A stretch of DNA of 64,000 bases. Origin: Liquidambar formosana (Eukaryota; Streptophyta; Magnoliopsida; Saxifragales; Altingiaceae). A model generated the notes under the pieces. That model was not told the DNA's origin and made no database searches. It worked only from the letters and a program-made list of their open reading frames with translations. The stretch covers positions 31,927,316 to 31,991,315 of the forward strand of contig CM077832.1 of NCBI GenBank assembly GCA_039720395.1, in the 5' to 3' direction. Positions 3,371 through 49,259 of this stretch are shown piece after piece. The translations under genes and the position numbers were made by a program. The first letter of the stretch is position 1. The number at the start of each line of letters is the position of its first letter.

Positions 3371-4654
3371 TGTTGGCCCAAATAATCAACCCTAGAAGTA
3401 GGTGAATTGGGTTGATGCAAAATAAATGGAACTTTAAAAACTTTTGCAAATATAGTAAATTAAACAAGGATGCAAATAACACAATTAATGAAAGCAAATA
3501 AATGAGAGAGAGTTAGAGAAATCAAACACAAAATATAATGAGGTTCGGCTCTCCCACCTACGTCCTCGCCTCAAGAACTCCGCTTGAGGATTCCAAATCT
3601 ACTAACCAATCTCCTTCACAGGTGGAGATCAAACCTTTCACCAATCTACTTGTGGGTGTAGATCAAACCTTTACAATAAATAAATTCCTTTTACTCAATA
3701 AGGGTTATGCCCAACCCTCAATCACTCACAAAGATAGATATGAATTTAGTACAACAACAAATCCTTTTTTATTGGGTGAATGAAGAATTAAGCTCAATCT
3801 AATATGATATTGACAATGAAAGCTCAAGTATATGAATCTAGGGCTTAATAATGGGTAGGAAGAGTATAATCTTTTTCCCTTTTTTAATCAACCATTCCAA
3901 AGTGTTTGAGACATCATTTATATAGCCTTGGATGGTCTATAACCGTTTGGTAACAGCCTTTTCAAAAATAGAGCCGTTTGAGCATTTTTTTGGGGGCTTA
4001 AAAAACTAGCCGTTATTCTGTCAGAACGAGGATTTCAGACGTCTTAAATCCATTTCAGACGTCTTAAATCTATTTTAGATGTCTTAAATAATTTCAGACA
4101 TCTTATTTAGGCATCTTAAATATCCAAAGAGCAAGTATAAGGGTCTGTGAAAAAGACTCAATTTCAAACGTCTTAAATCATTTCAGGCGTCTTAAACTTT
4201 TCAGACATCTTAAACTTTTCAGACGTCTTATTCAGGCATCTTAAATCTAGACAGCAAGATATAGGTTATTTTCTAATTCTAAGTCTATAAATGATTTTCC
4301 AAGTAAAATTTAGGACCTCTTAGGGTCATGATCTATGGTATATCGATTTTATAGTCATTGAGCTTTCATCATTCAACCATTTACATAAAATCCTAACTCT
4401 CACCTAAACACCCAATTCTTCAATATCTTCAAATTCTTCACTTCATGGGGTTCTTGAGAGTTTAATCTTCTCTTCCTTGAAACTCTTTGCTTCTCTTGTT
4501 CTGTTTGGCTTTTTTCTTATGATAACACATTTGAGCATAGAAAAAACCTAACTTATAATAATCAACTCAAATGATAAACATTAGTCCATAATCATTAATG
4601 CTTTGTTATCATCAAAATCATAATATATCATGGAATGAAATCTTCAATCTAACA
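3371..4654 (-). repeat. LTR of gag-only copia element (minus, 1284 bp)
   Basis: On the minus strand this runs from TGTTAG (4654) to CCAACA (3371), i.e. TG...CA, with a purine-rich tract just outside the start. The same sequence in plus orientation, with a deletion of about 350 bp, forms the LTR at 8972-9901. A TATA-like TATATAAA on the minus strand lies at about 3915-3925. Confidence 0.8.
4033..4245 (-). promoter_or_regulatory. Cluster of about 10 TTCAGACGTCTTA-like motifs in U3
   Basis: About ten copies of a near-palindrome centred on AGACGTCT (variants AGACATCT, AGATGTCT, AGGCGTCT, AGGCATCT) lie about 110-330 bp upstream of the LTR TATA box. The inverted LTR at 9178-9245 keeps four copies. 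A role as transcription-factor sites is inferred, not shown. Confidence 0.5.
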
Positions 4655-4670
4655 ATCTCCCCTTTTTTTA
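4655..4670 (-). other. Polypurine tract of gag-only copia element
   Basis: On the minus strand, a run of A followed by GGGGAGAT ends immediately before the LTR start, the expected place for plus-strand priming. Further GGGGGAG-like tracts on the minus strand at about 4750, 4910 and 4965 resemble it. Confidence 0.65.
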
Positions 4671-5140
4671 TGATGAGAAACTATTGATGTTGATCATAAA
4701 ACAATAAGTTTTGAAATTGTTGGAGGGTAATAAATAAACACAATGTTCATGCTCCCCCTAACAATATGCATAATGATACCAATAATAAAGTATGCAATAA
4801 TACCAATGGCTATCATCAATATGCATCTATACCATTTAATGTGTGCATGATACCAAAAATATCAAAAGTAATATCATCATGCATTTTTACATTAAGCTCA
4901 TATTCTCCCCCTAAATCATATACTCATCATGTACAAAGAGAATATAACATCAATTACTAATTTTCTCCCCCTTTGACATCATAAAAAAGAATGATGTTCA
5001 TATATAGTCATGGTACCAAGAGAAAATGTATATTTAAACTCACAAGTTTTCATGCCACACATGAGATTCAAAATATCAATAAGTCTAGCAATGAATAGCA
5101 TCAAAATCATTATGTAGATCATGCTTTCAAGTCTATAATG
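4671..5140 (-). other. 3' noncoding part of gag-only copia element
   Basis: AT-rich sequence without ORFs, containing several CTCCCCCT tracts (purine tracts on the element strand). It corresponds to the region between the last gene and the 3' LTR, and continues at 7740-8250 after the solo LTR insertion. Confidence 0.5.
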
Positions 5141-5145
5141 TGTAT
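5141..5145. repeat. Target site duplication TGTAT, left
   Basis: TGTAT here and at 7735-7739 flank the solo LTR exactly. Confidence 0.8.
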
Positions 5146-7734
5146 TGTAATACCCGTAATTTTTAAATAGGGTATTAAGGGTTTAATCTATGATTAACGT
5201 GGCTAATCCCTTGATTTTTCGAATGATCACATGTATGGGTGATGCATGTTTATGATATTATGATGTTGGATGTGTTTTGATGCTTGTTTTGGTGCATTAA
5301 GTATCTTTTGGGTGCATTTAGCCTTATTTGCAACTTAAGGGTTTAAGTTACTGAAATTTGGCTAAGTGTGGGGAAAAAGTGAATTTTCGTAAATCTTCGT
5401 TTTAAAAGATAATTTTTGGCGGTAATGGGAGTTTATAATATCATAAGACATTAGTGATTTTATGGGAATTTATTAGCATGTTTGGATTGGGTTCCACGCA
5501 TGTTTGTTTTAGGAAAATCTGTTGAGAGACGGATTTTGTACTAAAACTTGGAAATGAGATTTTGATATATTGGGAATTTAATTTTTCTGATATTTTATTT
5601 GGATTCAAATGGGGGGTTATTTGTTTATTTTCATTAAATAAGGCAATGGTATGTACTGTGTGGGTTTATACACATTTGCCTGAGTTACTGGGCATTTTCA
5701 GCAAGGGACGATCGATCATGCCTTGGGGATGATCGATCATAAGGTGCCCCAGAATTGTGATTTTGATTCTGTTTTCCACGATCGATCGTGCCCTCAGACC
5801 ACGATCGATCGTGCATCACGGATTTTGCAAATTTTTTTGCGTCAAATGACGCAAATGCCCCTCACCCCTTATAAAAACCCATCCCCCACGATTTTAGACC
5901 AGATCTAGTCTTTTTGAGGAGGGAGAAAGAGAGAGAGAGAAGGAGAGAAGGAGAAGAGGGGGCGGAGGCTCCACGGCAGGTTCGCCGGAGCACGGCGACC
6001 TCGATCCGACGCTGGCAAGCTCGGATCTAGCGTATTTTGGCCCGATCTACGTGCGTATGGTTGTGGATTTGGGTTTTTCTCTCTCTTTGATGCTTGGGAA
6101 TACATTATTATGGTTGGATTCATCTTCTCCAACCTCTTGGTAGAGCGTGGAGCTTGTTAATGGTGATTTGAGTTTGGATTTCATGGGTTTTGACATGGGT
6201 GTTCATCCCCATCAACTCCTTTTGCATTTTAGAGATATTTTCTTATATTTTAGAGTTAAAGTTTATAATTTCTTTTGGTTTATCATCTTATTCTTACATT
6301 TATGGGTTTATTCATGCACATTGGGGGGTTTTGGTGGTGATTTGGAGTTGGGACCTCCATTATTTTCATTAACCAAGTCATTTGGGAGCTAGGGCTTGGA
6401 TTCGGAGCGCGCATTTGCATCCTAGGGCTTAGACTTCATACTCACAACCTCAAAGGTTACATTTTTCCATGCATTTGGTTGAAGTAGGTGCAATTTACAT
6501 AGGTTTAAACTATTGACATGATAATATGGTATATATTATCATAGTACTTGGTATTCTTGGGCCTAGAATATGTATATATACATGATTTATGGAATAAATC
6601 TTGAAAGGAACTTTGGGTATTTGATAACGTAAATTGGAAATTACGTTTATCAATGAGTTGGTTTGTTTTATATATTCTATGGAATATAATTGTATAGATT
6701 TTATGGGTATTTATGTTGTTAACATAAATTGGTATAATTATGTGATTATTTCCACTATGGTTTATGTGGTATATTTTGGAAGTGATTTTGGATAAAAATC
6801 ATTTTATGGTTTATCGCACTGCATGTTGGGCATAATCATGCATTAAATGGACTTAATGAATACTGGGTAAAAGTATTGCATAAAATGGGTCATTGGAATT
6901 GGACTATTTGCAGTCAATGGGACTTTGCGGTGTTTTCCATTCCTTTGGTCCTGAGGTACTTTTCGGTTCCAGGTAGGAACCCTTCTGTTCTCGAATCAGA
7001 GGCTACTTTCCGGTTCCAGATAGGAACCCTTATGTTGTCCTCTTAGAGGTTGAGTTTAAAATCCTCCGTTTCCGCGCGAAGACTCCTGCGGGAGTGGTCG
7101 ATAATTAATGAATTAATGTAAATTGGACATGAGTCACATGCATTGGGCATTATGCATTATTTGTTTTAAGTTATGGGTTATAACTTATTTTGGAATTTAT
7201 AATATACTTGGTGAGTATATTTTGATTTAAATGATATAATTGGTTTTATTTATATCATTGCTTTAGTTTACTATGTCAAATTGTATCTACTGAGTCGTCA
7301 GACTCACGTCTATTATTTTAAATGTTTTTCAGTATTACAGGACCTGAAGTTATGCGGAGGCACGCTTTCTTGGGATTTATTAATGTATTTTCATAGGATT
7401 AATGAATGTATTTCATTAAATTTTATTCGAGCTATTGGGTTAATGTAAATGTAAATTCAATCCGGGTTGTAATTTTAATTACTTATGGTTGTGTGTATGT
7501 GGAATACGACGCATGGGATGATACCATTTCCATGGATGACAGGAAATTGTTATGTATGGATTTTCATAACAGGTTTTCACGATGGTATGTCCTATCTACA
7601 GATGGGTCATGCCGAAAATTTTTAAAATGATTGAGAATTTTAACACGTGTCATCCACGTTTTATCAAAGGATTTATTAAAGAAAAAGCTTGTTTTATTAT
7701 TTTGATCACGGCTTAATTAATTTGGGTCGTGACA
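5146..7734 (+). mobile_element. Gypsy-like solo LTR (2589 bp)
   Basis: Starts TGTAATACCCG and ends GGGTCGTGACA (TG...CA), with a perfect 5-bp duplication TGTAT on both sides and no internal retrotransposon genes. This is the product expected from LTR-LTR recombination. Length and termini resemble long LTRs of plant Ty3/gypsy (Tekay/Del-like) elements; the lineage is an inference because no internal domain is present. It sits inside the 3' noncoding part of the gag-only copia element, so it is younger. A decayed relative flanks the young copia element at about 39.2-39.6 and 49.3-50.6 kb. Confidence 0.85.
5708..5813. promoter_or_regulatory. Four palindromic GATCGATC motifs upstream of LTR TATA box
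   Basis: Four copies centred on GATCGATC occur at 5708, 5729, 5777 and 5800. The last two are the perfect 14-bp palindrome CACGATCGATCGTG. TATAAAAA follows at 5870, and a GA-rich leader at 5926-5950. This is the U3 promoter region of the solo LTR; function is inferred. Confidence 0.5.
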
Positions 7735-7739
7735 TGTAT
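7735..7739. repeat. Target site duplication TGTAT, right
   Basis: Matches 5141-5145 exactly. Confidence 0.8.
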
Positions 7740-8251
7740 ATAAGCCAAGATTTTGAAAAGAATAGATATCAATTGAAAAATGAACCTTGGGTTAGCATGA
7801 ATTTTTCAGATTTTAAGTATTGAACCACATAAGACTTATAGACAGAGATATGCAATATTAGTCATTTCATGCATCAATCTCATCAAAAAAAGTATATATC
7901 AAGATCAATGGATATATATACAAAACATTATCATCATGCATTGATTTGATTTTAATAATTATAGCATTCTTGCCAGGCTCATGCTTCCACTCTTCAAAGA
8001 ATAAAACTTTTTATAAATAAAGAGGGAGTTCTTACCAATATCACCTTATGAAAAGGTTTCTAACTTTTGAGACTCAAGCATAGTTCATTGGGAGTTCATA
8101 AGTATGAATTGAATTTACCTCCCATCATTTTTCAATGAGCTCATGCTTGAGGTTGCATACCTACAAAATAAAATTATGCAACTTTCTTTGGTACCCAAAC
8201 CATTTTGGGTCCATGAGGGTTAGTACTTAGAATTATAACTCCTTTAAGCTT

Positions 8252-8974
8252 CTAAATACGTTTTGTTTTGACAAAAGAGTTTAGGTAAGATTTTTCCAAA
8301 TTGGTTTTCCCAAAAACACACCTTTGACTCCCCAAAGTTTTATCAAAATTTTCTTTACCATTTGAAAACTTGGTCAAGGTAGGGGTCAAGTTATCAATCT
8401 TTTCTTTTAAAGAAATAGTTTCTTTTTGAAAGTATAATAAAGATTGATTTTTCAAAATATCTTGCTCATTTTTTCTCTTAAAATCGTCATTAAGATTATT
8501 CAAATTTTCAATAAAATTTGAGAGAAAAGAAATTTTCTTTTTCAAAACAATATTTTTATGAACAAGTTTCTCGTATTCTTCAAGTAACTCATCAAAAGAA
8601 ATTTGAAACTCTTCATAATAAGATGATTCATCAAGATTAGAGTTTACCTCCTCTTCTTGTGCCATGAAGCAAAAATGAGCTATATCTTTATCGCTTGATG
8701 CTTTACTTGAGTAATTATCTTCTTCAGCAACTTCATGAGCTTTCATAGTGAGCTCATATGTTGTAAGGTTGCCATTTAGATCACTTAAGCTGATATTGTT
8801 GAAATCCCTTCCTTGAAGAATGGAGGTAGTCAAAAAATCCCAAGTTTTAGGAAGACACCTAAGTATCTTTCTCACCAATTCTGAGTTAGTATAGGTTTTG
8901 CCAAGAGAACTTAATGAATTAACAATAATATTGAAGCGAGTAAACATATTGGAAATAGTCTCATACTCCTTCAA
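8252..8974 (-). pseudogene. Copia Gag, middle and C-terminal part (240 aa)
   Basis: The reading frame matches the Gag of the intact copia element in this window. It contains the motifs MFTRFN, SLGKTYTNSELVRKILR, LPKTW and LSDLNGNL (UBN2/retrotransposon gag type), followed by an acidic stretch and a coiled-coil-like segment with ISLKEKIDNL. The N-terminal part is missing here; it lies in inverted orientation at 9959-10309. The CCHC zinc knuckles found in the intact relative are absent. Beyond the stop, degraded sequence on the same strand still resembles the last Gag residues (a GPKMVWVPK-like stretch, about 8180-8215), so the C-terminus has suffered a deletion or frameshift. No pol follows. 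Gag would form the capsid-like particle; this copy cannot. Confidence 0.75.
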
Positions 8975-9901
8975 GGTTTCATTCCATAAATATATTATGA
9001 TTTTGATAATAACAAAGCATTGATGATTATGGACTAATGTTTATCATTCGAGTTGATCATTATAAGTTAGGTTTTTTCTATGCTCAAATGTGTTATCATA
9101 AGAAGAAAGCCAAAAAGAACAAGAGAAACAAAGAGCTTCAGGGAAGAGAAGATTAAACTCTCAAGAACCCCATGAATAAGACGCCTGAATAAGACGTCTG
9201 AAATTATTTAAGACATCTGAAATGGATTTAAGACATCTGAAATCGTCATTTTGACAAAATAACCGCTAGTTTTTTAAGCCCCAAAAAGTGCTCCAACGGC
9301 TCTATTTTTGAAAGGGCTGCTACCAAACGGTCATAAACCATCAAAGGCTATATAAATGGTGTCTCAAACACTTTGGAATGATGGATTAAAAAAGAGAAAA
9401 ATATTATACTCTTCCTACCCATTATCAAGCCCTAGATTCACATACTTGAGCTTTTATTGTCCATATCATATTAGATTAAGCTTAATTCTTTATTCACCCT
9501 GTCAAGAGGGATTTGTTGTTGTACTAAATTCATATTTATCTTTGTGAGAGATTGAGGGTTGGACATAACCCTTGTTGAGTAAAGGGAATTTGTTTATTGT
9601 AAAGGTTTGATCTACACCCGCAAGTAAATTGGTGAAAGGTTTGATCTCCACCTGTGAAGGAGATTGGTTAGTGGATTTAGAATCTTCAAGTGAAGTTCTT
9701 GTGGCAAGGACGTAGGCGGGAGAGTCTAATCTCGTTATATTTTGTGTTTGATTTCTCTAACTCTCTTATTTATTTGCTTTCATTAATTGTGCTATTTGCA
9801 TCATTGTTTAATTTACTATATTTGCAAAAGTTTTTAAAGTTCCATTTATTTTGCATCAACCCAATTCACTCCCCTTCTAGGTTTGATTATTTGGGCCAAC
9901 A
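8972..9901 (+). repeat. Inverted LTR copy of gag-only copia element (930 bp)
   Basis: Plus-strand sequence matching the reverse complement of 3371-4654. It lacks roughly the first 10 bases and about 350 bp of U3 after CCCCATGA, and ends GGGCCAACA. It carries four AGACGTCT-like motifs (9178-9245) and a TATA box TATATAA at 9349. It joins directly to minus-strand gag on its left, so the outer LTR end is fused to an internal gag position. Confidence 0.75.
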
Positions 9902-9903
9902 AT

Positions 9904-9915
9904 TGGTATCAAAGC
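9904..9915 (+). other. Primer binding site (initiator tRNA-Met type)
   Basis: TGGTATCAAAGC lies two bases after the LTR end. It matches, with one change, the usual plant copia PBS TGGTATCAGAGC complementary to the 3' end of initiator tRNA-Met. The intact element has the exact sequence at 40888. Confidence 0.75.
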
Positions 9916-9958
9916 AAGGCTCTAATTTTGATTTGAAATCTTCACTAGAGTTAAGATC

Positions 9959-10309
9959 ATGTCAAAATATTTTGAAACTCTTATTGCCGAACGTCAATCG
10001 ACCTTAAGGCCACCTTTATTTAATGGCTTTCTATATAATTGTTGGAAAATAAAAATGAGAATTTTTATTCAAGCCTCCAACTATGAAGTATGAAAGGTTA
10101 TTGAAAATGGACCCCATATACCCACTAAGACCCAAGAAGAATGGGATGATAATGACAAGAGATTCATGGAAATCAATGTTAAAGTTATGAATCTTTTATA
10201 TTGTGCACTTGTTCCAAATGAATTTAGTAAAATCTTTAGGTGGCCAAAGAGATATGGGATGCACTAGAAGTTTCCTATGAAGGAACACCTCAAGTTAAAG
10301 AGGCTAACA
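9959..10309 (+). pseudogene. Copia Gag, N-terminal part
   Basis: Starts with ATG after the PBS and resembles the start of the intact Gag (RPPLFNG, then KMRIFIQ). An in-frame TGA lies at 10091-10093, where the relative has a Trp codon, and later frames are broken. The similarity stops after the segment matching YEGTSQVKEA of the intact Gag, very close to where the minus-strand gag fragment (8252-8974) begins. Confidence 0.7.
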
Positions 10310-10709: not shown

Positions 10710-10907
10710 TAGGAGTGCAACTTAATTCAGGTAGATCCAAGAACTGGACCGGTCCAAGCAATTCGGTCCAAGCAATTTGGTCCAGTTTGGGCCAAACACT
10801 AATCAGTTTGGTTCTCAGGCCATAATTTTAAGAACCGATGAATTTGGTCCAGTTTAAGGGGCTTTAGAATCGACTCGGACCGAATTCCTGAATTACGAGA
10901 AAAAAAT

Positions 10908-10969
<62 letters not shown>

Positions 10970-11197
10970 TATATTAATATACTATACTTCATATATAAGT
11001 ATTATTGAATAAATAATAATACTTATTCAATAAAGTTATTACCTTTTACCAAAAAAAAAAAAAAACTGAGAACCAGACCCTTTTTGCCGTTCCAATCCAA
11101 TATAATTTCTGGTCTAGTTCCGGTCCAATTTCTTAGGTCCCGAATTAATTTGATCCAGTCCAGATATGCCCCTAGCCCGGACCGGGTTGCACCCATA
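10710..11197. mobile_element. hAT-like non-autonomous element (488 bp)
   Basis: Left end TAGGAGTGCAAC and right end GTTGCACCCATA form an inverted repeat. The flanks GGAGACAT (10702-10709) and GGATACAT (11198-11205) form an 8-bp duplication with one mismatch, as expected for hAT. The inside is rich in GGACCGGTCC/GGTCCA words and holds an AT microsatellite at 10911-10966. No transposase. Confidence 0.6.
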
Positions 11198-39603: not shown

Positions 39604-40080
39604 TGTTGGCCCCAAGGTTATATAACCAAGGGCATATCCGAGATTTTGATGATAACAAAGGATCGATGTAAGTACTAATGGTTTATTTGTCAAGATTATA
39701 ATCAAAGCTAGGTACTCGAGCATATGGATCCAAAAGAAGCATAAAGATATATGCATATCATGGAACTCAAAGCACACATGCTTATGATATCAAAGATAAT
39801 CAAGCACAAAAGCATACGAGCATAGAAAGCATGCAAAAGACCTACGATCACTCAAGACCAAGCTAGCATCGTCAATGAAGATACTTAAATAGCTATGAGT
39901 GAGGTTATTAGGTTTTTGATGTACTTGATTGCTCAAAATGATCGCTCCCTTGACCTAGATGGACCTTAGGATCCTTGGGTAAACTTAATTCATCACTTGA
40001 ACAAGGCATAAGTTGATACAAATGAACTTGATCGATTTAAACTTGTGATATAATCATTATAAGTTCATTTCTGCCCAAAT

Positions 40081-40232
40081 CAGTCGACTCATTCTTGAAT
40101 CAGTCGACTCATTTAAGCAGAAGAGGTCCTCTGCTCTTGTCTTTTGATTCTGCTCAAATCAGTCTACTGAATTCCCAATTCAGTCGACTGATTTAGCAAA
40201 TCAGTGGACTGAATTGAGTATTCAGTCGACTG
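40081..40232. promoter_or_regulatory. Six CAGTCGACTG-type palindromes in U3 (5' LTR)
   Basis: Copies at 40081, 40101, 40160 (CAGTCTACTG), 40181, 40202 (CAGTGGACTG) and 40223. The core is the palindrome TCAGTCGACTGA. They end 120 bp before the TATA box (40352-40358). Spacing of about 20 bp between several copies suggests repeated protein sites on one face of the helix. Function inferred. Confidence 0.6.
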
Positions 40233-40351
40233 ATTGTGCGATCTCAGAACTCCAACGGCTAGTTTTTGAAAGGTTGTTGAGGCATTAAATGCCACCAAAC
40301 GGCTCTTTCCCGGCATTTATTGCACCAAACGGTCATATTATGCCTAATGCC

Positions 40352-40358
40352 TATATAA
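40352..40358 (+). promoter_or_regulatory. TATA box of copia 5' LTR
   Basis: TATATAA followed by AACAATG; transcription of the genomic RNA would start about 30 bp downstream, near 40385. Confidence 0.6.
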
Positions 40359-40887
40359 ACAATGATTCAAATGCATTTATGTGTATCAATACAAGAGAAT
40401 TCATTGTTTTCATTCTTCTAGCCCTAAATTCATTAAGAGCATTCATTGAGCAATCAATTAGAAGAGAGCTGAGCTTTAATTTTTGTGTTATTCACTCTTA
40501 AAGAGAGTTTCTTTGTAGACACATCTTATCTCTACAAACTTGTAATCAAGGGTTGGTGATAACCCCATTCTTTGCACTTGAAGAAGTGTGGCTGAACAAG
40601 TGTTGGTTGAAAGCACTTGATTTGTAAAGGTTTGCTGCTCCACCTTGAAGGAGAGTGATAGTGGATTGGTGAATCCTCAAGCGAGCTCTTGAGGCGAGGA
40701 CGTAAGCGGGAAGGCTGAACCTCGTTAAATCTTGTGTTTGCATTCTCTTTCTCTTATTCTCTTTACTGTTTATTATTGAGAATATCTCTATTTGCCATAA
40801 TCTGATTTTAGCTTGCTATCATATTTTTTAATTGGCCAATAACCCTATTCACCCCCCCCTCTAGGGTTGTTTACTTGGGACAACAAT

Positions 40888-40900
40888 TGGTATCAGAGCC
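40888..40900 (+). other. Primer binding site for initiator tRNA-Met
   Basis: TGGTATCAGAGCC two bases after the LTR end (AT spacer), complementary to the 3' end of plant initiator tRNA-Met, the standard primer of Ty1/copia elements. Confidence 0.9.
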
Positions 40901-40941
40901 CAACCTCTAGCATTTGACATATTTGTCTTGCGAGGAACGAT

Positions 40942-42660
40942 ATGGCCAACTATAGTGGTAACGGATTCACCGAAGGACAATCGTCCAATAGACCACCACT
41001 TTTCAATGGAGATGCATCTCTATATAATTTCTGGAAAATCAGAATGCAAATTTTTATTCAATCCACTAGCTATGAGCTATGGAATATCACTTCTAAGGGT
41101 CCTTTGATCCCTACTAAGGTGGTAGATGGAGTTACACTTCCTAAAGTACCACAAGAATACACCACAGCTGATCATAAGTCTCTTGAACTTAACTCTAAAG
41201 CCATTGGCTTACTATATTGTGCTTTAACTAATGATGAATTTAGCAAAATCTCTAGGTGCACTAGTGCCAAAGAGATATGGGATACATTAGAAGTCACCTA
41301 TGAAGGGACATCTCAAGTAAAAGAAGCAAAAATCAATATGCTTGTTTGTGAATATGAAATGTTTAAAATGAAAAAGGATGAATCTATTAGAGACATGTTT
41401 GCTAGATTCAATGCTATCATTAATCCTTTAAGTTCTCTTGGAAAGATCTACACTAACTCCGAATTGGTGAGAAAAATTCTTAGGAGCTTGCCTAAGCAAT
41501 GGGATGTCCTCACCACTACTCTACTTCAATCAAAGGAGCTATCATCAATGACCTTGAGTGATCTTGACGGCAACCTAGTCACACAAGAACTCGCATTCAA
41601 AGCTCGTGAAATTGATGAAGGGAAGACATCCAAGAGCATGGCTCTCAAAGCCTCACAAGACGAAGAAGAACCACCAAGTGAAGAGTGTGAGAATGAAGAA
41701 GATGAAGACATGGCTTTCATATCTCACAAGCTCAAAAAGTTCTTCTCTAGAAGAAATCAAGGAAGGAGATTCAACAAGGGTGACTCCTCCAAAAGAATTC
41801 CAAATAGAGGAGAAAACTCAAATAGAGAACCACAAGTGTGTTTTGAATGCAAGAAGCCCGGACATATCAAGATAAATTGTCCTCAACTTAACAACAACTA
41901 CAACAAGACGAGTCACAATAACAACAACTTCAAGGACAATAGAAAATTCAAGAAGAAGGCTTTCACCGTCACATGGGATGATGAAGCAAATAGTGATGAA
42001 GAAGATGAGGAGATTTCTTGTGATCAAGAAGTGGCAAACTTTTGTCTCATGGCAAAAGAGGATGAGGTAATCGAACTCAATTCTATAGAAGAACCTCCCA
42101 CTTATGAAGAATTACAAGATGCACTTGAAGACACTTTTCTTGAATTAAAAAGGTTTTCTCACAAAAACAATGATTTGAAAAAGAACATCTCATCTCTTCA
42201 AGAGGAACTAAATGCTTTGAAACATGAAAATTTAGAATTGAAAAGCAAGATAGACTCAACCCCTACCATTTCTCAATCTAGTCTTGAAAGTGAAAATACT
42301 TCATTGAAAGAAAAGATTGAAGACTTGACTAATACCTTGGCCAAGTTTACCAATGGAAGGGATAACTTGGATAAGATATTAACTAGTCAAAGATGGTGTT
42401 TTGATAAGGCCGGAATTGGTTATCAAGAAAATGTCAAACAAAAATCTTATATTAACTTCTTTCCTAAGCCTAAAGTCTCTAGTACACCTAAAATCTCATG
42501 CACTTATTGTAAGAAGGAGGGACATAACATCTACACTTGCAAAATGAGAAAAAGACCTAAAAGTTTCACCAAGAGGGTGTGGGTAGTTAAGGGAACCTCA
42601 CCTCCTATGGCTAACCCCTATGGACCCAAGAAAGTATGGGTACCAAAGAGAGTTACTTGA
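40942..42660 (+). CDS. gag: Copia Gag (572 aa)
   Basis: Capsid-forming protein. The N-terminal part has NRPPLFNGDASLYNFWKIRM, then SAKEIWDTLEVTYEGTSQVK and SLGKIYTNSELVRKILRSLP (UBN2-type gag, roughly residues 15-220). A CCHC zinc knuckle CFECKKPGHIKINC lies near residue 300. An acidic region and a long coiled-coil (residues about 390-490) follow. A second knuckle, CTYCKKEGHNIYTC, lies near residue 515, and the end is basic (GPKKVWVPKRVT). Two knuckles around a coiled coil fit SIRE-like Gag. The start ATG is 54 bp after the PBS start. It ends with TGA at 42658-42660, out of frame with pol. Confidence 0.95.
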   Translation: MANYSGNGFTEGQSSNRPPLFNGDASLYNFWKIRMQIFIQSTSYELWNITSKGPLIPTKVVDGVTLPKVPQEYTTADHKSLELNSKAIGLLYCALTNDEFSKISRCTSAKEIWDTLEVTYEGTSQVKEAKINMLVCEYEMFKMKKDESIRDMFARFNAIINPLSSLGKIYTNSELVRKILRSLPKQWDVLTTTLLQSKELSSMTLSDLDGNLVTQELAFKAREIDEGKTSKSMALKASQDEEEPPSEECENEEDEDMAFISHKLKKFFSRRNQGRRFNKGDSSKRIPNRGENSNREPQVCFECKKPGHIKINCPQLNNNYNKTSHNNNNFKDNRKFKKKAFTVTWDDEANSDEEDEEISCDQEVANFCLMAKEDEVIELNSIEEPPTYEELQDALEDTFLELKRFSHKNNDLKKNISSLQEELNALKHENLELKSKIDSTPTISQSSLESENTSLKEKIEDLTNTLAKFTNGRDNLDKILTSQRWCFDKAGIGYQENVKQKSYINFFPKPKVSSTPKISCTYCKKEGHNIYTCKMRKRPKSFTKRVWVVKGTSPPMANPYGPKKVWVPKRVT

Positions 42661-42693
42661 ACTTGTGTAGGTATGCTTGAAGTCATCAAGCAA
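42661..42693 (+). other. gag/pol junction: stop codon plus +1 frame change
   Basis: After the gag TGA, the gag frame stays open for 11 codons to a TGA at 42694. The pol frame has a TAG at 42668-42670 and is open afterwards, so the two frames overlap only at 42671-42693. Making Gag-Pol would need stop readthrough plus a +1 shift, or splicing. The gag-only element has a comparable layout (gag stop, then TTGTAGGTATGC on its strand, about 8170-8185). Confidence 0.6.
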
Positions 42694-45600
42694 TGAAAAA
42701 TGGTTTCTTGATAGTGGGTGCTCAAGGCATATGACGGGTGATAGATCAAAGTTCGTCTCTTTGAAGCCCAAGGACGGCGGCTACGTGACATTTGGAGACA
42801 ATGCCAAGGGTAAGATAATTGGCATTGGTAAGGTTGGTAAGAATTCCTCACTTTGTGTTGAAAATGTTTTATTAGTTGATGGTTTAAAGCATAATCTCCT
42901 TAGCATTAGTCAATTATGTGATAAAGGATATAGAGTTACCTTTAAATCCAATAAATGCATAATTGGAGATGAAGATAAGACCCTATTTGTTGCATATAGG
43001 ATTGGTAACATCTATGCTATAGAGTTTGAAGAAATCGCATTACAAAATGTACATTGCTTCTCCGCTTTAAACGAAAATCATTGGTTATGGCATAGAAGAC
43101 TTGGACATGCTAGCATGGATTTAATTTCAAAACTTTCTAGGCATGAACTTGTAAGAGGTTTACCAAAAGCAAAGTTTTCAAAAGATGGAGTTTGTAGTGC
43201 ATGCCAATTTGGAAAACAAACCAAGTCCTCTTTTAAATCAAAGCCTCATATTTCAACTACTAGACCCTTACAACTCATTCATATGGATCTATTTGGACCT
43301 ATTGCAATTGCAAGTCTTGGAGGGAAGCATTATGCATTTGTAATTGTTGATGACTACTCTAGATATACATGGGTGTTCTTCCTTGCACATAAAGATGAGA
43401 CTCATGCTACATTTGTGACATATTGTAGAAGAGTCCAAAATGAGAAAAGCTATACCATTACACATGTTAGGAGTGATAGAGGAAGCGAATTTGTCAATAA
43501 GGATATTGTACAATTTTGTAATGAGAATGGCTTTGGTCACAATTTCTCCGCTCCTAGAACTCCTCAACAAAATGGTGTGGTTGAAAGAAAGAATAGATTA
43601 CTTGAGGAAATGTCTAGAACCATGCTAAATGAACACTCTTTACCTCAATATTTTTGGGCCGAGGCCGTTAATACCGCATGCTATGTAATGAATAGAGTTT
43701 TATTAAGATCTAAACTCGGTAAAACTCCTTATGAACTATGGAATGATAAGAAACCTAACATAGGTTACTTTAAAGTGTTTGGTTGTAAATGCTTTATATT
43801 GAATGATAGAGATAAACTTTCCAAATTTGATTCTAAATCCGATGAAGGTGTGTTTCTTGGCTATTCCATGAAGAGTAAAGCATATAGGGTGTTTAACAAG
43901 AGAACTTTAACTGTTCAAGAATCAATGCATGTTGTATTTGATGAAACTAACCCTCTTGCACCCAAGAAATATGTGGATGATGATGATGATGTAGGTACAA
44001 GCTTGCAAGAACAAGTTGAAACCTTGAGTCTAAATGATAAAGAAGATCCACTAGACAAAGGCAAAGAAAAGGAAGAAGATGAAGTTATTAAAGACAAGAA
44101 TCCGGAAGAAGAAGTTGAAGTTGAAAATGCTCCACTCCATCCGGATGTCACCAAGACTTGGAAATTTGTGAGGAATCATCCTAAAGATCAAATCTTAGGT
44201 GAACCCTCACGTGGGGTAAGAACTCGTTCTTCCATGAGAAATTTATGTGATCATCTTGCTTTCCTATCTCAAATTGAACCTAAGAACATTAATGAAGCTG
44301 AAAATGATGAATCATGGGTCCTTGCTATGCAAGAAGAACTCAATCAATTTGAAAGGAACAAGGTTTGGACCTTGGTACCTAGACCACATGACCATGGAGT
44401 AATTGGAACTAAATGGGTATTTAGAAACAAAAAGGATGAATCCGGAGTTGTTACTAGAAACAAGGCTCGACTTGTAGCCCAAGGTTATAATCAACAAGAA
44501 GGCATAGATTATGATGAAACCTATGCTCCGGTAGCTAGACTAGAAGCCATAAGGATGTTACTTGCCTATGCATGTCATAAAAATTTCAAATTGTTTCAAA
44601 TGGATGTCAAGAGTGCATTTTTAAATGGTTTCATAGAAGAGGAAGTTTATGTTGAACAACCTCCCGGTTTTGAAAGTCATGAATTTCCAAATCATGTTTT
44701 TAAACTAAGAAAAGCTTTATATGGTTTGAAACAAGCTCCTAGAGCTTGGTATGAAAGACTTAGTGGATTTTTACTCAAAAATGGTTTTAAGAGAGGAAAA
44801 CTTGACACCACACTTTTCATTAAAACCATTGATAATGATATGCTTTTAGTGCAAATCTACGTTGATGATATCATTTTTGGATCCACTAATGAGAATCTTT
44901 GCAAAGAATTTTCTAAGATTATGCAGGAAGAATTTGAGATGAGCATGATGGGAGAATTGACATTCTTTCTTGGACTTCAAATCAAACAAACAAAGGAAGG
45001 AACTTTCATCAATCAATCCAAATATGTCAAAGATCTACTCAAAAAGTACGGATTGGAAGATGGTAGAGATTTTTCTACTCCAATGAGCACTTCCATCAAG
45101 ATTGACAAGGATGAAAAGGGTAAAAATGTTGATCAAAAGAAATATAGAGGTATGATTGGAAGTTTACTTTATTTAACCGCAAGTAGACCCGATATCATGT
45201 TTAGTGTTTGCTTATGTGCTAGATTTCAATCATGTCCTAAAGAATCTCACTTGCTTGCTGTTAAGCGTATCTTTAAATACTTAAGTGGCTCAATGAACCT
45301 TGGATTATGGTTTTCTAAGTATACCTCTTTTGATATGCTTAGTTATTCCGATGCGGATTTTGCCGGTGGCAAAGATGACCGCAAAAGCACTAGTGGGACT
45401 TGCCATTTCCTAGGACATTCACTAGTTTCTTGGTTTAGTAAGAAACAAACATCGGTTGCACTCTCAACCACCGAGGCCGAATACATTGCAGCCGGTAGTT
45501 GTTGTGCACAAGTGTTGTACATGAAACAACAACTTGAGGACTATGGACTTCACTTTGACCACATTCCCATTAAATGTGATAATACTAGTGCTATCAACTT

Positions 45601-45814
45601 AACCAAGAACCCCATTCAACACTCACGGACTAAGCACATTGAGATAAGACATCATTTTATTCGTGATCATGTCCAAAGAGGTGATATTGAGATTGATTTC
45701 ATAGGTACCGACCATCAATTGGCCGATATCTTTACTAAACCTCTTCAAGAAGACCGTTTTAACTTCATTAAAAGAGAACTTGGCATGTGTTTAATGCATG
45801 ATGTAGTGAATTGA
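42677..45814 (+). CDS. pol: Copia Pol polyprotein (about 1045 aa)
   Basis: Protease DSG at residues 12-14 ([13 protein letters not shown]). GAG-pre-integrase HHCC motif around residues 135-180 (HRRLGH ... CSACQFGK). Integrase core with MDLFGP, SDRGSEF and [11 protein letters not shown] (D,D,E catalytic residues). RT begins WTLVPRP and TKWVFRNK, with [24 protein letters not shown] and YVDDIIFGS. RNase H has [18 protein letters not shown] and TEAEYIAA and ends near ADIFTKPL. All catalytic motifs look intact and there is no internal stop. The frame opens at 42671 after TAG; the first in-frame ATG is within the protease, so Pol probably depends on gag expression. Ends TGA at 45812-45814. Confidence 0.95.
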
Positions 45815-45922
45815 TGCATATCTTGGTTCTTCTACTCTTATCTTGATGTATGTCTATGTTGTGCTTTGCATTTCACTCACACACTCAAAAGATTTTGGTT
45901 GAAATTGATTTACCTAGTGTTT

Positions 45923-46134
45923 CAGTTGACTGAAAAGTCAAATCAGTCGACTTAATGGGCATTTCAGTCGACTGAATTGACTATTCAGTCCACTGAATCA
46001 GGCCCTGCTCTTGATTGCACTCACTGGGCAAATCAGTCGACTGAAATGGACTTTCAGTCCACTGATTCAGGCAGTAGCCTATGATGCAATTTCCAGGACA
46101 ATTCAGTCGACTGAAATGGTGATTCAGTCGACTG
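45923..46134. promoter_or_regulatory. Eight CAGTCGACTG-type palindromes between pol and third ORF
   Basis: Copies at 45923 (CAGTTGACTG), 45944, 45965, 45986 (CAGTCCACTG), 46034, 46055, 46104 and 46125. It is the same core and similar connecting words (CTGCTCTTGATT, GCAAATCAGT) as the LTR cluster at 40081-40232. This suggests a diverged copy of the LTR enhancer placed in front of the third ORF. Confidence 0.65.
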
Positions 46135-46146
46135 AATCTGCGATTC

Positions 46147-46241
46147 TATAAATATAACACGCGGCTTTTCATTTCAAATCACACCCATTCCCGCGACGTT
46201 TTCACTTCTCTCTCTCTCTAACCTCCAAAACTCTCTCAACA
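46147..46241 (+). promoter_or_regulatory. Putative internal promoter and leader of the third ORF
   Basis: TATAAATA at 46147-46154 lies 13 bp after the last palindrome. It is followed by a CT-rich patch (about 46207-46221) and CAACAATGGCT at the start codon, matching the plant initiation context. This is the layout of a plant core promoter, so a separate mRNA for the third ORF is likely; no transcript data are available. Confidence 0.55.
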
Positions 46242-47656
46242 ATGGCTCCCAAGACAAAGAATCCAGCCAAACGCCCTCACACCGGTGAAGGTTCATCGCG
46301 AAACTTACGACCCAGGGTTCCAAATCCTCCTCCACCGCCGGTGCAACCACCCGTTGAACAACAACCCGACGAAGAGGAAGGCGGAGAGTTTGTCTCTCTC
46401 GATGCACAGCGCAAGTTTGATGAGGACTTCAGTCGTCGCACCGTCGTCTTCGGTAAATATGCCCCTTTGAAGAGCATTTCGTTCTCATTGCAAATTATTT
46501 CCGTCTTTTGGGTTGGGATTCATTCATTTTTCTGAAAAAACCCATGTATACTTATCTTGTGCGCATCTTTTACACCAATCTTGACTATATTAATAATCAC
46601 ATCCTTTGGTCTCAAGTTGGTGGTAGAATTATATCTATGGATCAAAACCTTCTTGCCCAAATCTTTCATATCCCTCGTGGTCAACATCAAATCCTTGTGA
46701 CCAACGAATGGACTCACTTTCAAGGGTATGATCCTATCCAAGCCCTTAATCAGATCTGTGGGCGGAATGATATTGTAAACCGTTTTAAACCCAAAGCCAA
46801 AGAACTAACTCTCAATGCTCGATTGATTCATCACATGATTACATACAATATCCTTCCACGGGGTGGCGGACGTGACCATGTCTCATATTTCGACATTTTT
46901 CTTATCTGGTGCATCATGAATACCATTCCCATTGATTTACCTTTTATCATTTCCAATCATATTGTCGATTGCCAAAAGAAGAAAGTGGCTAGTCTCCCCT
47001 ACGGCTTCGCTCTGACTTGTGTTTTTGAACATTTCCAAATACCTCTTGATGAGGAAGCCGTAGTCGCCATCTCTCACACCAACACCTACTCCGACATGAC
47101 TCTTAAACAAATGCACTACAAGTTTACTTCCAGGGGTTGGGTACCGAAAGATGATCCGGATGAGGTGACCGATGAAGAACAGGAGGCTGATGACCCTGTT
47201 CCTCCTAGTGAAGAGGAGCAGCAACCACATGAGGAGCCTGGTGAGCATGGCATGGATGTTGAGCCTCCACAGCCCCCTCCTGCGTTTGAGCCTCCTCCCT
47301 TTGAGCCTCCACAGCAGCCACCTATCCCTCCTGCTGGTGTTCAGACCATTTTGACAGCTATACAGGGTCTGCAGGTCTCCATGGATGGCATTGGCACTCG
47401 TCTCTTGGCTCTTGAGAACCGTCAGACACAAATCGAGAATGATATGGACACCTTGAAGCGTTATGGTGATATCTTTACGACTCAGGTGGACCAGCGTCTT
47501 GCCAGGACAGAGACTGATATACGCACTGTGCGTAACTCATTGACAGCCATTGAGCGATATGCCCGTCGCAATGCACCACCGCCTCCACCACCACCTCCTG
47601 CCCCTGAAGATGCGGACGCACCTGGTCTTCCTGAGCATATTGACTTGGACCCCTAG
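46242..47656 (+). pseudogene. Third (env-like/additional) ORF of SIRE-type element, one frameshift
   Basis: The first part (46242-46535 frame) starts MAPKTKNPAKRPHTGEGSSR, is Pro-rich, and reaches RRTVVFGKYAP. The second part (to 47656) has GWDSFIFLKKPMYTYLVRIF, IHHMITYNILPRGG and FEHFQIPLDEEAV, similar to the 'putative plant transposon protein' domain. Pro/Glu-rich and coiled-coil segments follow, with a Pro8 run near the end. The parts lie in different frames. The second frame is open from 46457, and protein similarity is best explained by a 1-base indel at about 46457-46466, near a CCCC run. Together they would span about 470 codons. This ORF is a known SIRE/Maximus feature of unknown function; no clear signal peptide or membrane anchor is seen. 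A cryptic intron is a less likely explanation. Confidence 0.7.
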
Positions 47657-47962
47657 CTTTTTGTCTGATGACAAAAGGGGGAGATATTTTTTGATTGATG
47701 TATCTTGAACATCTAACTTATTTTGAACACACAATGACTTGACACATTCCTAGTTATCTATAACTGTTAACTTATGACTTTTTGGTTATGTTTTGAACTA
47801 TTTCCACAGTTGATTATAATCAGTTTATTTGCTTTACAATGCTTTGTGCTCATTGCTTATTACTTGCATTTCAATTATGCATATTGTGAGGGGGAGCTTG
47901 CTCCATATATATCATGTGCTTTATTTCCCTACCTGCCATATACATCAATAGTTTGTCATCAT
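47657..47962 (+). other. Noncoding region with extra polypurine tracts
   Basis: An upstream PPT-like ACAAAAGGGGGAGAT lies at 47671-47685 and a GAGGGGGAG at about 47888-47896. Both resemble the true PPT before the 3' LTR. No ORF. Confidence 0.55.
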
Positions 47963-47977
47963 CAAAAAGGGGGAGAT
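47963..47977 (+). other. Polypurine tract of copia element
   Basis: AAAAAGGGGGAGAT immediately before the 3' LTR start TGTTGG at 47978, the plus-strand priming site. Confidence 0.9.
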
Positions 47978-49259
47978 TGTTGGCCCCAAGGTTATATAAC
48001 CAAGGGCATATCCGAGATTTTGATGATAACAAAGGATCGATGTAAGTACTAATGGTTTATTTGTCAAGATTATAATCAAAGCTAGGTACTCGAGCATATG
48101 GATCCAAAAGAAGCATAAAGATATATGCATATCATGGAACTCAAAGCACACATGCTTATGATATCAAAGATAATCAAGCACAAAAGCATACGAGCATAGA
48201 AAGCATGCAAAAGACCTACGATCACTCAAGACCAAGCTAGCATCGTCAATGAAGATACTTAAATAGCTATGAGTGAGGTTATTAGGTTTTTGATGTACTT
48301 GATTGCTCAAAATGATCGCTCCCTTGACCTAGATGGACCTTAGGATCCTTGGGTAAACTTAATTCATCACTTGAACAAGGCATAAGTTGATACAAATGAA
48401 CTTGATCGATTTAAACTTGTGATATAATCATTATAAGTTCATTTCTGCCCAAATCAGTCGACTCATTCTTGAATCAGTCGACTCATTTAAGCAGAAGAGG
48501 TCCTCTGCTCTTGTCTTTTGATTCTGCTCAAATCAGTCCACTGAATTCCCAATTCAGTCGACTGATTTAGCAAATCAGTGGACTGAATTGAGTATTCAGT
48601 CGACTGATTGTGCGATCTCAGAACTCCAACGGCTAGTTTTTGAAAGGTTGTTGAGGCATTAAATGCCACCAAACAGCTCTTTCCCGGCATTTATTGCACC
48701 AAACGGTCATATTATGCCTAATGCCTATATAAACAATGATTCAAATGCATTTATGTGTATCAATACAAGAGAATTCATTGTTTTCATTCTTCTAGCCCTA
48801 AATTCATTAAGAGCATTCATTGAGCAATCAATTAGAAGAGAGCTGAGCTTTAATTTTTGTGTTATTCACTCTTAAAGAGAGTTTCTTTGTAGACACATCT
48901 TATCTCTACAAACTTGTAATCAAGGGTTGGTGATAACCCCATTCTTTGCACTTGAAGAAGTGTGGCTGAACAAGTGTTGGTTGAAAGCACTTGATTTGTA
49001 AAGGTTTGCTGCTCCACCTTGAAGGAGAGTGATAGTGGATTGGTGAATCCTCAAGCGAGCTCTTGAGGCGAGGACGTAGGCAGGAAGGCTGAACCTCGTT
49101 AAATCTTGTGTTTGCATTCTCTTTCTCTTATTCTCTTTACTGTTTATTATTGAGAATATCTCTATTTGCCATAATATGATTTTAGCTTGCTATCATATTT
49201 TTTAATTGGCCAATAACCCTATTCACCCCCCCCTCTAGGGTTGTTTACTTGGGACAACA
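47978..49259 (+). repeat. 3' LTR of copia element (1282 bp)
   Basis: Same length as the 5' LTR, with about five substitutions. Palindrome cluster at 48455-48606, TATA box at about 48726. Ends GGACAACA followed by AGAGT. Confidence 0.95.

Follow-up and report, generated by a model that had tools for sequence, protein, structure and literature searches.

The window, a stretch of 64,000 nucleotides from Liquidambar formosana, contains at positions 39604 to 49259 an element that, by the marks described below, is a young Sirevirus-type copia LTR retrotransposon. It is the host of the linker between pol and a third ORF (ORF3) and shows the following organization.

39604 to 40885, forward strand: 5' LTR of 1282 bp, differing from the 3' LTR by 5 mismatches; the target-site duplication is AGAGT (5 bp)
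40080 to 40233, forward strand: LTR palindrome array, six sites starting at 40080, 40100, 40159, 40180, 40201, and 40222
40351 to 40359, forward strand: LTR TATA box CTATATAAA, 120 bp past the core of the last palindrome
40942 to 42660, forward strand: gag ORF (PF14223), with a CX2CX4HX4C motif readable in the translation
42731 to 45814, forward strand: pol ORF, integrase and reverse transcriptase; stop codon at 45812 to 45814
45815 to 46241, forward strand: linker between pol and ORF3, 427 bp
45922 to 46135, forward strand: linker palindrome array, eight sites starting at 45922, 45943, 45964, 45985, 46033, 46054, 46103, and 46124
46146 to 46155, forward strand: putative internal promoter, TATA box CTATAAATAT
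46175 to 46190, forward strand: expected transcription start zone, placed by a TATA-to-start distance of about 30 bp
46199 to 46226, forward strand: CT-rich leader patch; no ATG between the TATA box and the ORF3 start
46242 to 47656, forward strand: ORF3 (PF20167), frame broken into the pieces 46242 to 46532 and 46544 to 47656; intact copies encode 474 amino acids
47676 to 47975, forward strand: three polypurine tracts, AGGGGGAG, at 47676, 47889, and 47968
47978 to 49259, forward strand: 3' LTR, containing six palindromes (48454 to 48607) and a TATA box at 48725

The last polypurine tract, AGGGGGAG at 47968, lies 10 bp before the start of the 3' LTR at 47978 and, with two further copies upstream, constitutes one Sirevirus mark. 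Two others can be read directly from the sequence, namely, the 5' LTR junction CA/ATTGG/TATCAGAGC (40884 to 40899) and a C-rich signal close to the end of the LTR (40850 to 40866), both of which are described as Sirevirus features (PMC2829016). The gag and pol domains of Ty1/copia elements (Pseudoviridae) are represented by PF14223, PF07727, and PF00665. Elsewhere in the window, a degenerate and rearranged Sirevirus-like element occupies 3402 to 10307, with LTR-like arms at 3402 to 4628 and 8990 to 9869 in opposite orientation and gag matches on both strands; it does not carry the AGTCGACT palindrome. A long AT dinucleotide microsatellite is found at 10883 to 10975.

The linker between the end of pol at 45814 and the ORF3 start codon at 46242 has exactly the length of 427 bp given in the initial annotation. 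It carries an array of 12-bp palindromic sites, TCAGTCGACTGA, built around the core AGTCGACT and lacking a CGG-CCG signature. The earlier counts of eight palindromes in the linker and six in each LTR are reproduced when sites at most one mismatch from TCAGTCGACTGA are considered, with four perfect sites in the linker and two in each LTR. Within the window, TCAGTCGACTGA has 23 matches with at most two mismatches compared to 1.44 expected, a number reached in none of 100 shuffles, and it is the sole perfect 12-bp palindrome with at least three copies (two-letter words excluded). The sites of the linker are spaced at 21 bp inside blocks and at 48 to 49 bp from block to block, and those of the LTR mostly at 20 to 21 bp with a single gap of 59. 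The composition of the linker array, with a G+C content of 0.44 and an observed/expected CpG ratio of 0.46, is not that of a CpG island.

A TATA box was reported soon after the array, and indeed TATAAATA starts at 46147, separated by 11 bases from the last palindrome. The element contains three copies of the longer form CTATAWAWA, one per LTR and one in the linker (46146), of the 10 found in the window. Outside the element, TATAWAW lies 8 to 20 nucleotides downstream of ∼1.8% of the window positions, and CTATAWAWA lies downstream of 0.17%. The CT-rich patch (22 pyrimidines in 25 bases from 46199) and the good start context (AACAATGGC at the ORF3 ATG) noted earlier are likewise present. Eight ATGs occur between pol and ORF3, the last of them at 46116, and the interval from the TATA box to the ORF3 start is free of ATGs. 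A bacterial promoter scan was not applicable.

All comparative data derive from one genome, that of the host (718 Mb). A search with the linker yields 323 candidates, of which the best 40 were scored; these comprise the window copy, 38 other full-length linkers, and one linker (L069) cut at base 228, which contains three palindromes only. The selection by linker similarity means that decayed or lost arrays are underrepresented in this set. The initial annotation had asked whether most other copies lack the palindromes and the TATA box at this place. This check leaves its reading standing, as all 38 other full-length linkers, picked by similarity, possess both, with 8 to 10 palindromes (at most one mismatch) followed by TATAWAW 11 to 15 bp past the last palindrome. 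The ORF3 start reads ACAATGGC in 37 of the 38 linkers, and in these the TATA box is located 91 to 95 nucleotides upstream with no ATG in between; in L055, the ORF3 start is not found at the expected place. The number of palindromes changes mostly by whole 21-bp units, from 8 to 9 to 10, with the array being kept. Two forms of the TATA box, TATAAATATAAC and the TATATATA type, occur at the same place, and each copy still conforms to TATAWAW; the alternative forms were noted for L039, L048, L052, L055, L056, and L058. The existence of two forms explains why the TATA positions of subgroup B are more variable than their neighbors (mean pairwise value of 0.098). The boundary between the polypurine tract and the 3' LTR can be read in 37 of the 38 copies, 36 of which show three to six palindromes and CTATAWAWA, with L039 showing neither.

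The linker is probably an internal promoter from which RNA polymerase II would transcribe ORF3, with an upstream array in common with the LTR and one dimeric factor expected on both. The upstream part would be the palindromic array, with sites like those that make up the upstream part of the LTR promoter, and the core part would consist of the TATA box, the short CT-rich and ATG-free leader, and the good start context. Transcription generally starts about 30 bp past a TATA box, and a start at this distance would give the ORF3 mRNA a leader of about 60 nucleotides. One dimeric DNA-binding factor, encoded by either the host or the element, would bind both arrays and in this way couple the genomic RNA and the ORF3 mRNA. 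The sequence-based parts of this model are the arrays, the TATA box, the leader, their presence across copies, the selection on ORF3, and the matching palindrome types, while the start, the factor binding, and the coupling are its predicted parts.

In contrast to a promoter, splicing would supply ORF3 from an LTR-initiated RNA, as proposed for the env-like genes of Athila and BAGY2, and would leave the array with some other purpose. Splicing is the cited model for other plant env-like genes (PMC2829016), and candidate acceptors of the form TTCAG/T are present inside the palindromes. However, no AG acceptor is located within 46128 to 46241, which disfavors splicing, and the 16 AG sites of the linker have only 8 to 13 pyrimidines in the preceding 20 bases. 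Use of 15 of these 16 sites leaves one to five upstream ATGs, and the sole AG that leaves none, at 46127, is preceded by 9 pyrimidines in 20 bases. The conservation of the TATA box 91 to 95 nucleotides before the ATG in 37 of the 38 copies is also left unexplained, and a spliced origin of ORF3 is considered unlikely. What holds of the earlier preference for a promoter over splicing is that splicing is the less likely route, given the lack of an AG in 46128 to 46241 and the ATGs left by 15 of the 16 upstream sites. Stop suppression, reported for SIRE1 (cited in PMC2829016), differs from the situation here, where read-through of pol meets another stop after 46 codons.

The linker and LTR arrays agree not only in the core but also in the bases beside it. 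Among the C-type copies, to which the window copy belongs, C precedes the AGTCGACT core (one mismatch allowed) at 357 of 375 sites in the linkers of 38 copies and at 210 of 211 in the LTRs of 37 copies. A related family whose ORF3 is ∼40% identical carries TAGTCGACTA-type sites in both linker and LTR. In this T-type family, every one of the 28 linker sites and 39 LTR sites has T in front of the core, which is followed by A at 27 of the linker sites and at all of the LTR sites; the sample consists of seven linker/LTR pairs, L070 and six taken from 40 scored of 320 candidates. The distance of 120 bp from the core of the last LTR palindrome to the TATA box of the window copy recurs in all seven T-type pairs but L089, for which no TATA box was found after the last LTR palindrome; one of the other six shows an extra TATAWA at 18 bp. 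Past the last linker palindrome, none of the seven T-type linkers contains TATAWA, with a TTTAAAA-like sequence instead, so that a TATA box is not present throughout. In the 43% and the 42% relative, one copy each, TATAWA is likewise missing past the last linker palindrome.

Pairs of intermediate identity show a graded picture. The 84% pair is of the C type in linker and LTR, and the 81% pair has C at six of seven linker sites but at three of six LTR sites, while the 75% pair (L075 and L081) is mixed in both. The 60% pair allows no comparison, with no site in the stretch fetched as LTR (L098). For the 43% and 42% pairs, the LTR stretches (L082 and L083) are presumed ones, as no polypurine tract was found; the 43% pair has TGGTCGACTA-like sites in the linker and the presumed LTR, and the 42% pair has one site only in the presumed LTR. 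The linker of a relative with 42% ORF3 identity (L072) shows another array layout, with four TAGTTGACTA sites 71 bp apart in a tandem repeat. In L076 and L089 to L094, the central CpG of the palindrome is often TpG or CpA, as expected from the decay of methylated CpG.

The occurrence of the same palindrome type in the LTR and linker of each family suggests one factor for both arrays, or copying between them, or both. The strict core, the symmetrical change of the flanking bases, and the 21-bp spacing, which corresponds to two helical turns, are suggestive of a homodimer on one face of the helix. The palindromes of LTR and linker might instead be RNA or DNA hairpins, serving as a small-RNA source or in RNA dimerization or packaging, and not factor sites. 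The arrays fold far better than shuffled sequences (z-scores of −9.5 for the linker and −7.6 for the LTR), although such pairing is inherent in palindromes and the z-score is therefore not independent evidence. The LTR palindromes of maize Sireviruses are hotspots of small-RNA mapping (PMC5311732). Hairpins, however, require neither an identical flanking base at every site nor a repeated 21-bp spacing, and they leave the arrangement of TATA box, leader, and start unexplained. This makes a pure hairpin role quite improbable compared with that of binding sites in a promoter.

The common origin of the two arrays is reflected in their spacers. For this comparison, spacers were scored in register against shuffled spacers, using one copy per family and masking the 8-bp cores together with four flanking bases on either side. 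Linker C compared to LTR C is equaled by 7 of 500 shuffles, with the common word CTGCTCTTG situated 28 bases before a palindrome in both; linker T compared to LTR T is equaled by none of 500, with the common word TTTGGCTACTG. The two linkers show no similarity to each other (482 of 500 shuffles as good), and the two LTRs give 306 of 500 in register but share three 7-mers (6 of 500). The cross pairs reach 41 of 500 (LTR C and linker T) and 350 of 500 (linker C and LTR T). Each linker array is thus nearer to its own LTR than to the linker of the other family, which suggests copying or conversion after the families parted. Tests with the window copy only give 0 to 44 of 1,000 shuffles as good, depending on scoring and masking, with other values at 1 and 10 of 1,000; the stricter masking weakens the similarity, with 12 and 44 of 1,000 shuffles as good. 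The likeness of the connecting words to the LTR, as claimed originally, is moderately supported in the window copy and more clearly so in the two-family test. Concerning the further suggestion that the element may have copied the array from its LTR, it is the shared ancestry with the LTR array that finds support, in two families with one copy each.

Recombination has probably also affected the linkers within the family. Subgroup D comprises 10 copies (L059 to L068) with a common diverged linker. One of them, L030 (another label for L059), differs from the window copy at 36 of 286 bases in 45815 to 46102 (13 of 105 before the array, 5 of 72 in palindromes, and 18 of 109 in spacers), compared to 7 of 1,500 in pol, 0 of 139 in 46103 to 46241, and 26 of 1,415 in ORF3. 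The contrast between palindromes and spacers is marginal in this copy (5 of 72 versus 18 of 109; P = 0.045, or 0.067 with the bases before the array added). In a multiple alignment, subgroup D differs from the window copy and L031 by 0.19 in the prearray and spacer bases and by 0.04 in the palindromes. The linker block of subgroup D, with the greater part of the array in it, probably stems from an exchange with a divergent lineage, and the block has retained the array. One edge of the exchanged block appears to fall inside the palindrome array in the L030 comparison.

Exchanges of this kind, seen in the diverged linkers of the 10 copies L059 to L068 and in the L030 block at 45815 to 46102 with nearly unchanged flanks, together with the family-specific spacer words common to linker and LTR arrays, would also be compatible with an array that is a by-product of template switching between LTR and linker, a recombination-prone repeat with no promoter function. 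This explanation is very improbable, as the palindromes diverge less than the spacers between subfamilies and as the array is present in 38 of 38 full-length linkers examined, which were picked by linker similarity.

The divergence between subfamilies was followed in more distant relatives. A protein search of the host genome with ORF3 gives 151 matches from 150 scored of 835 candidates, with identities down to 39%, and the upstream linkers of 10 relatives were fetched, chosen to span the identity range. Seven of the 10 (ORF3 60 to 100% identical) possess 8 to 10 palindromes at up to two mismatches with a TATA box just after them. The other three (ORF3 40 to 43% identical) have no palindrome of the exact type and no TATAWA after the array, which is made up of four to five sites with a AGTCGACT-like core. 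Compared to L077, the palindromes differ less than the spacers in L073 (8 of 96 versus 39 of 119; P = 9e-6), L074 (15 of 120 versus 31 of 136; P = 0.023), and L076 (10 of 108 versus 39 of 128; P = 4e-5), and in the three comparisons combined, the TATA box differs at 1 of 33 positions and the leader at 43 of 243. The test was run without L078, L079, and L075, the last of which (the 75% pair) has a different array layout. Four T-type comparisons also show smaller differences in palindromes than in spacers (P = 0.015, 0.13, 0.032, and 0.026). Homogenization within the arrays could mimic such selection on the palindromes.

The gene downstream of the proposed promoter is maintained in the family. 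In the window copy, the frame of ORF3 is broken by a stop at 46533, and the remainder, 46544 to 47656, is open in a different frame, a break overlooked in the initial annotation. Among 38 copies examined, 37 bear the ATG, and ORF3 is open for at least 400 amino acids from it in 25 of these, with a typical length of 474 amino acids. The pN/pS ratio is 0.08 for the window copy versus the other copies, 0.05 for the window copy versus subgroup D, and 0.07 for the others versus subgroup D, as calculated from the 26 of 38 copies whose C-terminal ORF3 piece aligns without a gap or stop. By this measure, ORF3 is under purifying selection, and the values of 0.05 to 0.08 indicate that the protein is maintained in the family, though lost in the window copy.

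A Pfam scan of ORF3 gives PF20167 alone above the cutoff (E value of 1.3e-17), spanning residues 93 to 271 of an intact copy. From the N terminus onward, the intact protein comprises a basic segment, the PF20167 domain, a part rich in proline and acidic residues, and a C-terminal region modeled as one 80-residue helix at low overall model confidence (mean pLDDT of 60 for the ORF3 piece). As regards the transmembrane and coiled-coil segments expected of a Sirevirus ENV-like gene, the observations are this helix and a best 19-residue hydropathy window of the C-terminal piece that reaches 1.96 and lies inside the PF20167 match. Comparison with solved structures gives one weak match (E value of 0.07). 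Protein searches with the ORF3 piece return 1 match when it is used alone and 76 with a two-sequence profile; all are named Catharanthus roseus, and most contain PF20167. No match was found in IMG/VR with the palindrome pair, the ORF3 piece, or the pol piece or in GTDB contigs with the palindrome pair, both being collections from which host records are possibly excluded. PF20167 is also reported for the 3' ORF of sunflower Athila, for which a nuclear location is predicted (PMC11728184). Unlike the copia element described here, Athila belongs to the gypsy elements, and the part of that paper concerned with the 3' ORF describes no promoter arrangement for it.

By analogy, ORF3 is a possible regulator that binds the palindromes. 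A more far-reaching and, on balance, doubtful proposal is that ORF3 encodes not an envelope but a nuclear, palindrome-binding protein acting on the LTR and on its own internal promoter in a self-feeding circuit like that of foamy viruses, and that families diverge by a joint change of binding specificity and palindromes, C type versus T type, in the manner of VANC proteins. Here, the basic N terminus, the PF20167 domain, and the acidic and proline-rich part would belong to a regulator, with the C-terminal helix acting as a coiled coil for dimerization. The foamy virus protein Tas binds to the internal promoter and, most likely, to elements in U3 as well (PMC3798896); both systems place an internal promoter before a 3' gene, with response elements there and in the LTR U3. 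Where foamy virus has Tas as its binding factor, the factor here is a predicted one, and the scan of ORF3 gives PF20167 alone. The VANC/VANDAL system resembles the present one in its short, repeated noncoding motifs of a plant transposon, which vary from one related family to another in step with the binding protein (PMC5735166 and PMC12844716). It differs in that VANDALs are DNA transposons with a 9-base motif that the relevant sections of those papers do not call palindromic and in that demethylation is demonstrated for VANC.

The closest known arrangement is found in the Sireviruses themselves. Bousios et al. (2010) described palindromic repeated motifs (RM boxes) in 13 Sireviruses and extra motif copies upstream of ENV in all nine Sireviruses with both ENV and the motif (PMC2829016). 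Those authors favored an internal promoter, with no promoter conclusively identified, and attributed the internal-promoter hypothesis to Peterson-Burch and Voytas (2002); the hypothesis is mentioned again in a later paper (PMC3414828). The element described here shares with those Sireviruses the hallmarks of the genus as well as palindromic motifs, one and the same motif occurring in the LTR and in the linker before the extra gene (PMC2829016). The RM-box definition of at least eight palindromic copies, located in the LTR and, where there is an ENV-like gene, also in the linker, compares with six copies per LTR and eight in the linker at this locus. RM boxes before ENV are therefore already described, and the design is not new in kind. 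One difference lies in the core: all elements of the 2010 table except Tnd-1, 12 of 13 in total, have CGG-CCG (PMC2829016), while the core here is AGTCGACT, with no CGG-CCG and no CpG-island composition. Furthermore, the TATA box, leader, and start context are defined here and followed across copies, and two families of one genome carry different motifs, each common to LTR and linker.

Searches of the literature for proof of an internal promoter in a Sirevirus, or for LTR-linker coevolution, led among the matches listed only to the RM-box paper and the later mention of the hypothesis (PMC2829016 and PMC3414828), and no report was found of a matching LTR/linker motif difference between families. 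The exact 10-base palindrome string occurs in 29 papers, with no retrotransposon title among the 20 listed, and the portions consulted of three further papers (PMC6696364, PMC3599292, and PMC10398659) add nothing further. The new aspects would be the comparative evidence from the host genome, a defined candidate core promoter over many copies, and the matching motif difference between two families.

These results bear on how plant retrotransposons express a third gene and on the role of that gene. The family offers one genome with dozens of copies, many with an intact and selected ORF3, and a discrete, TATA-containing candidate promoter, as well as a related family in which both arrays carry another motif.
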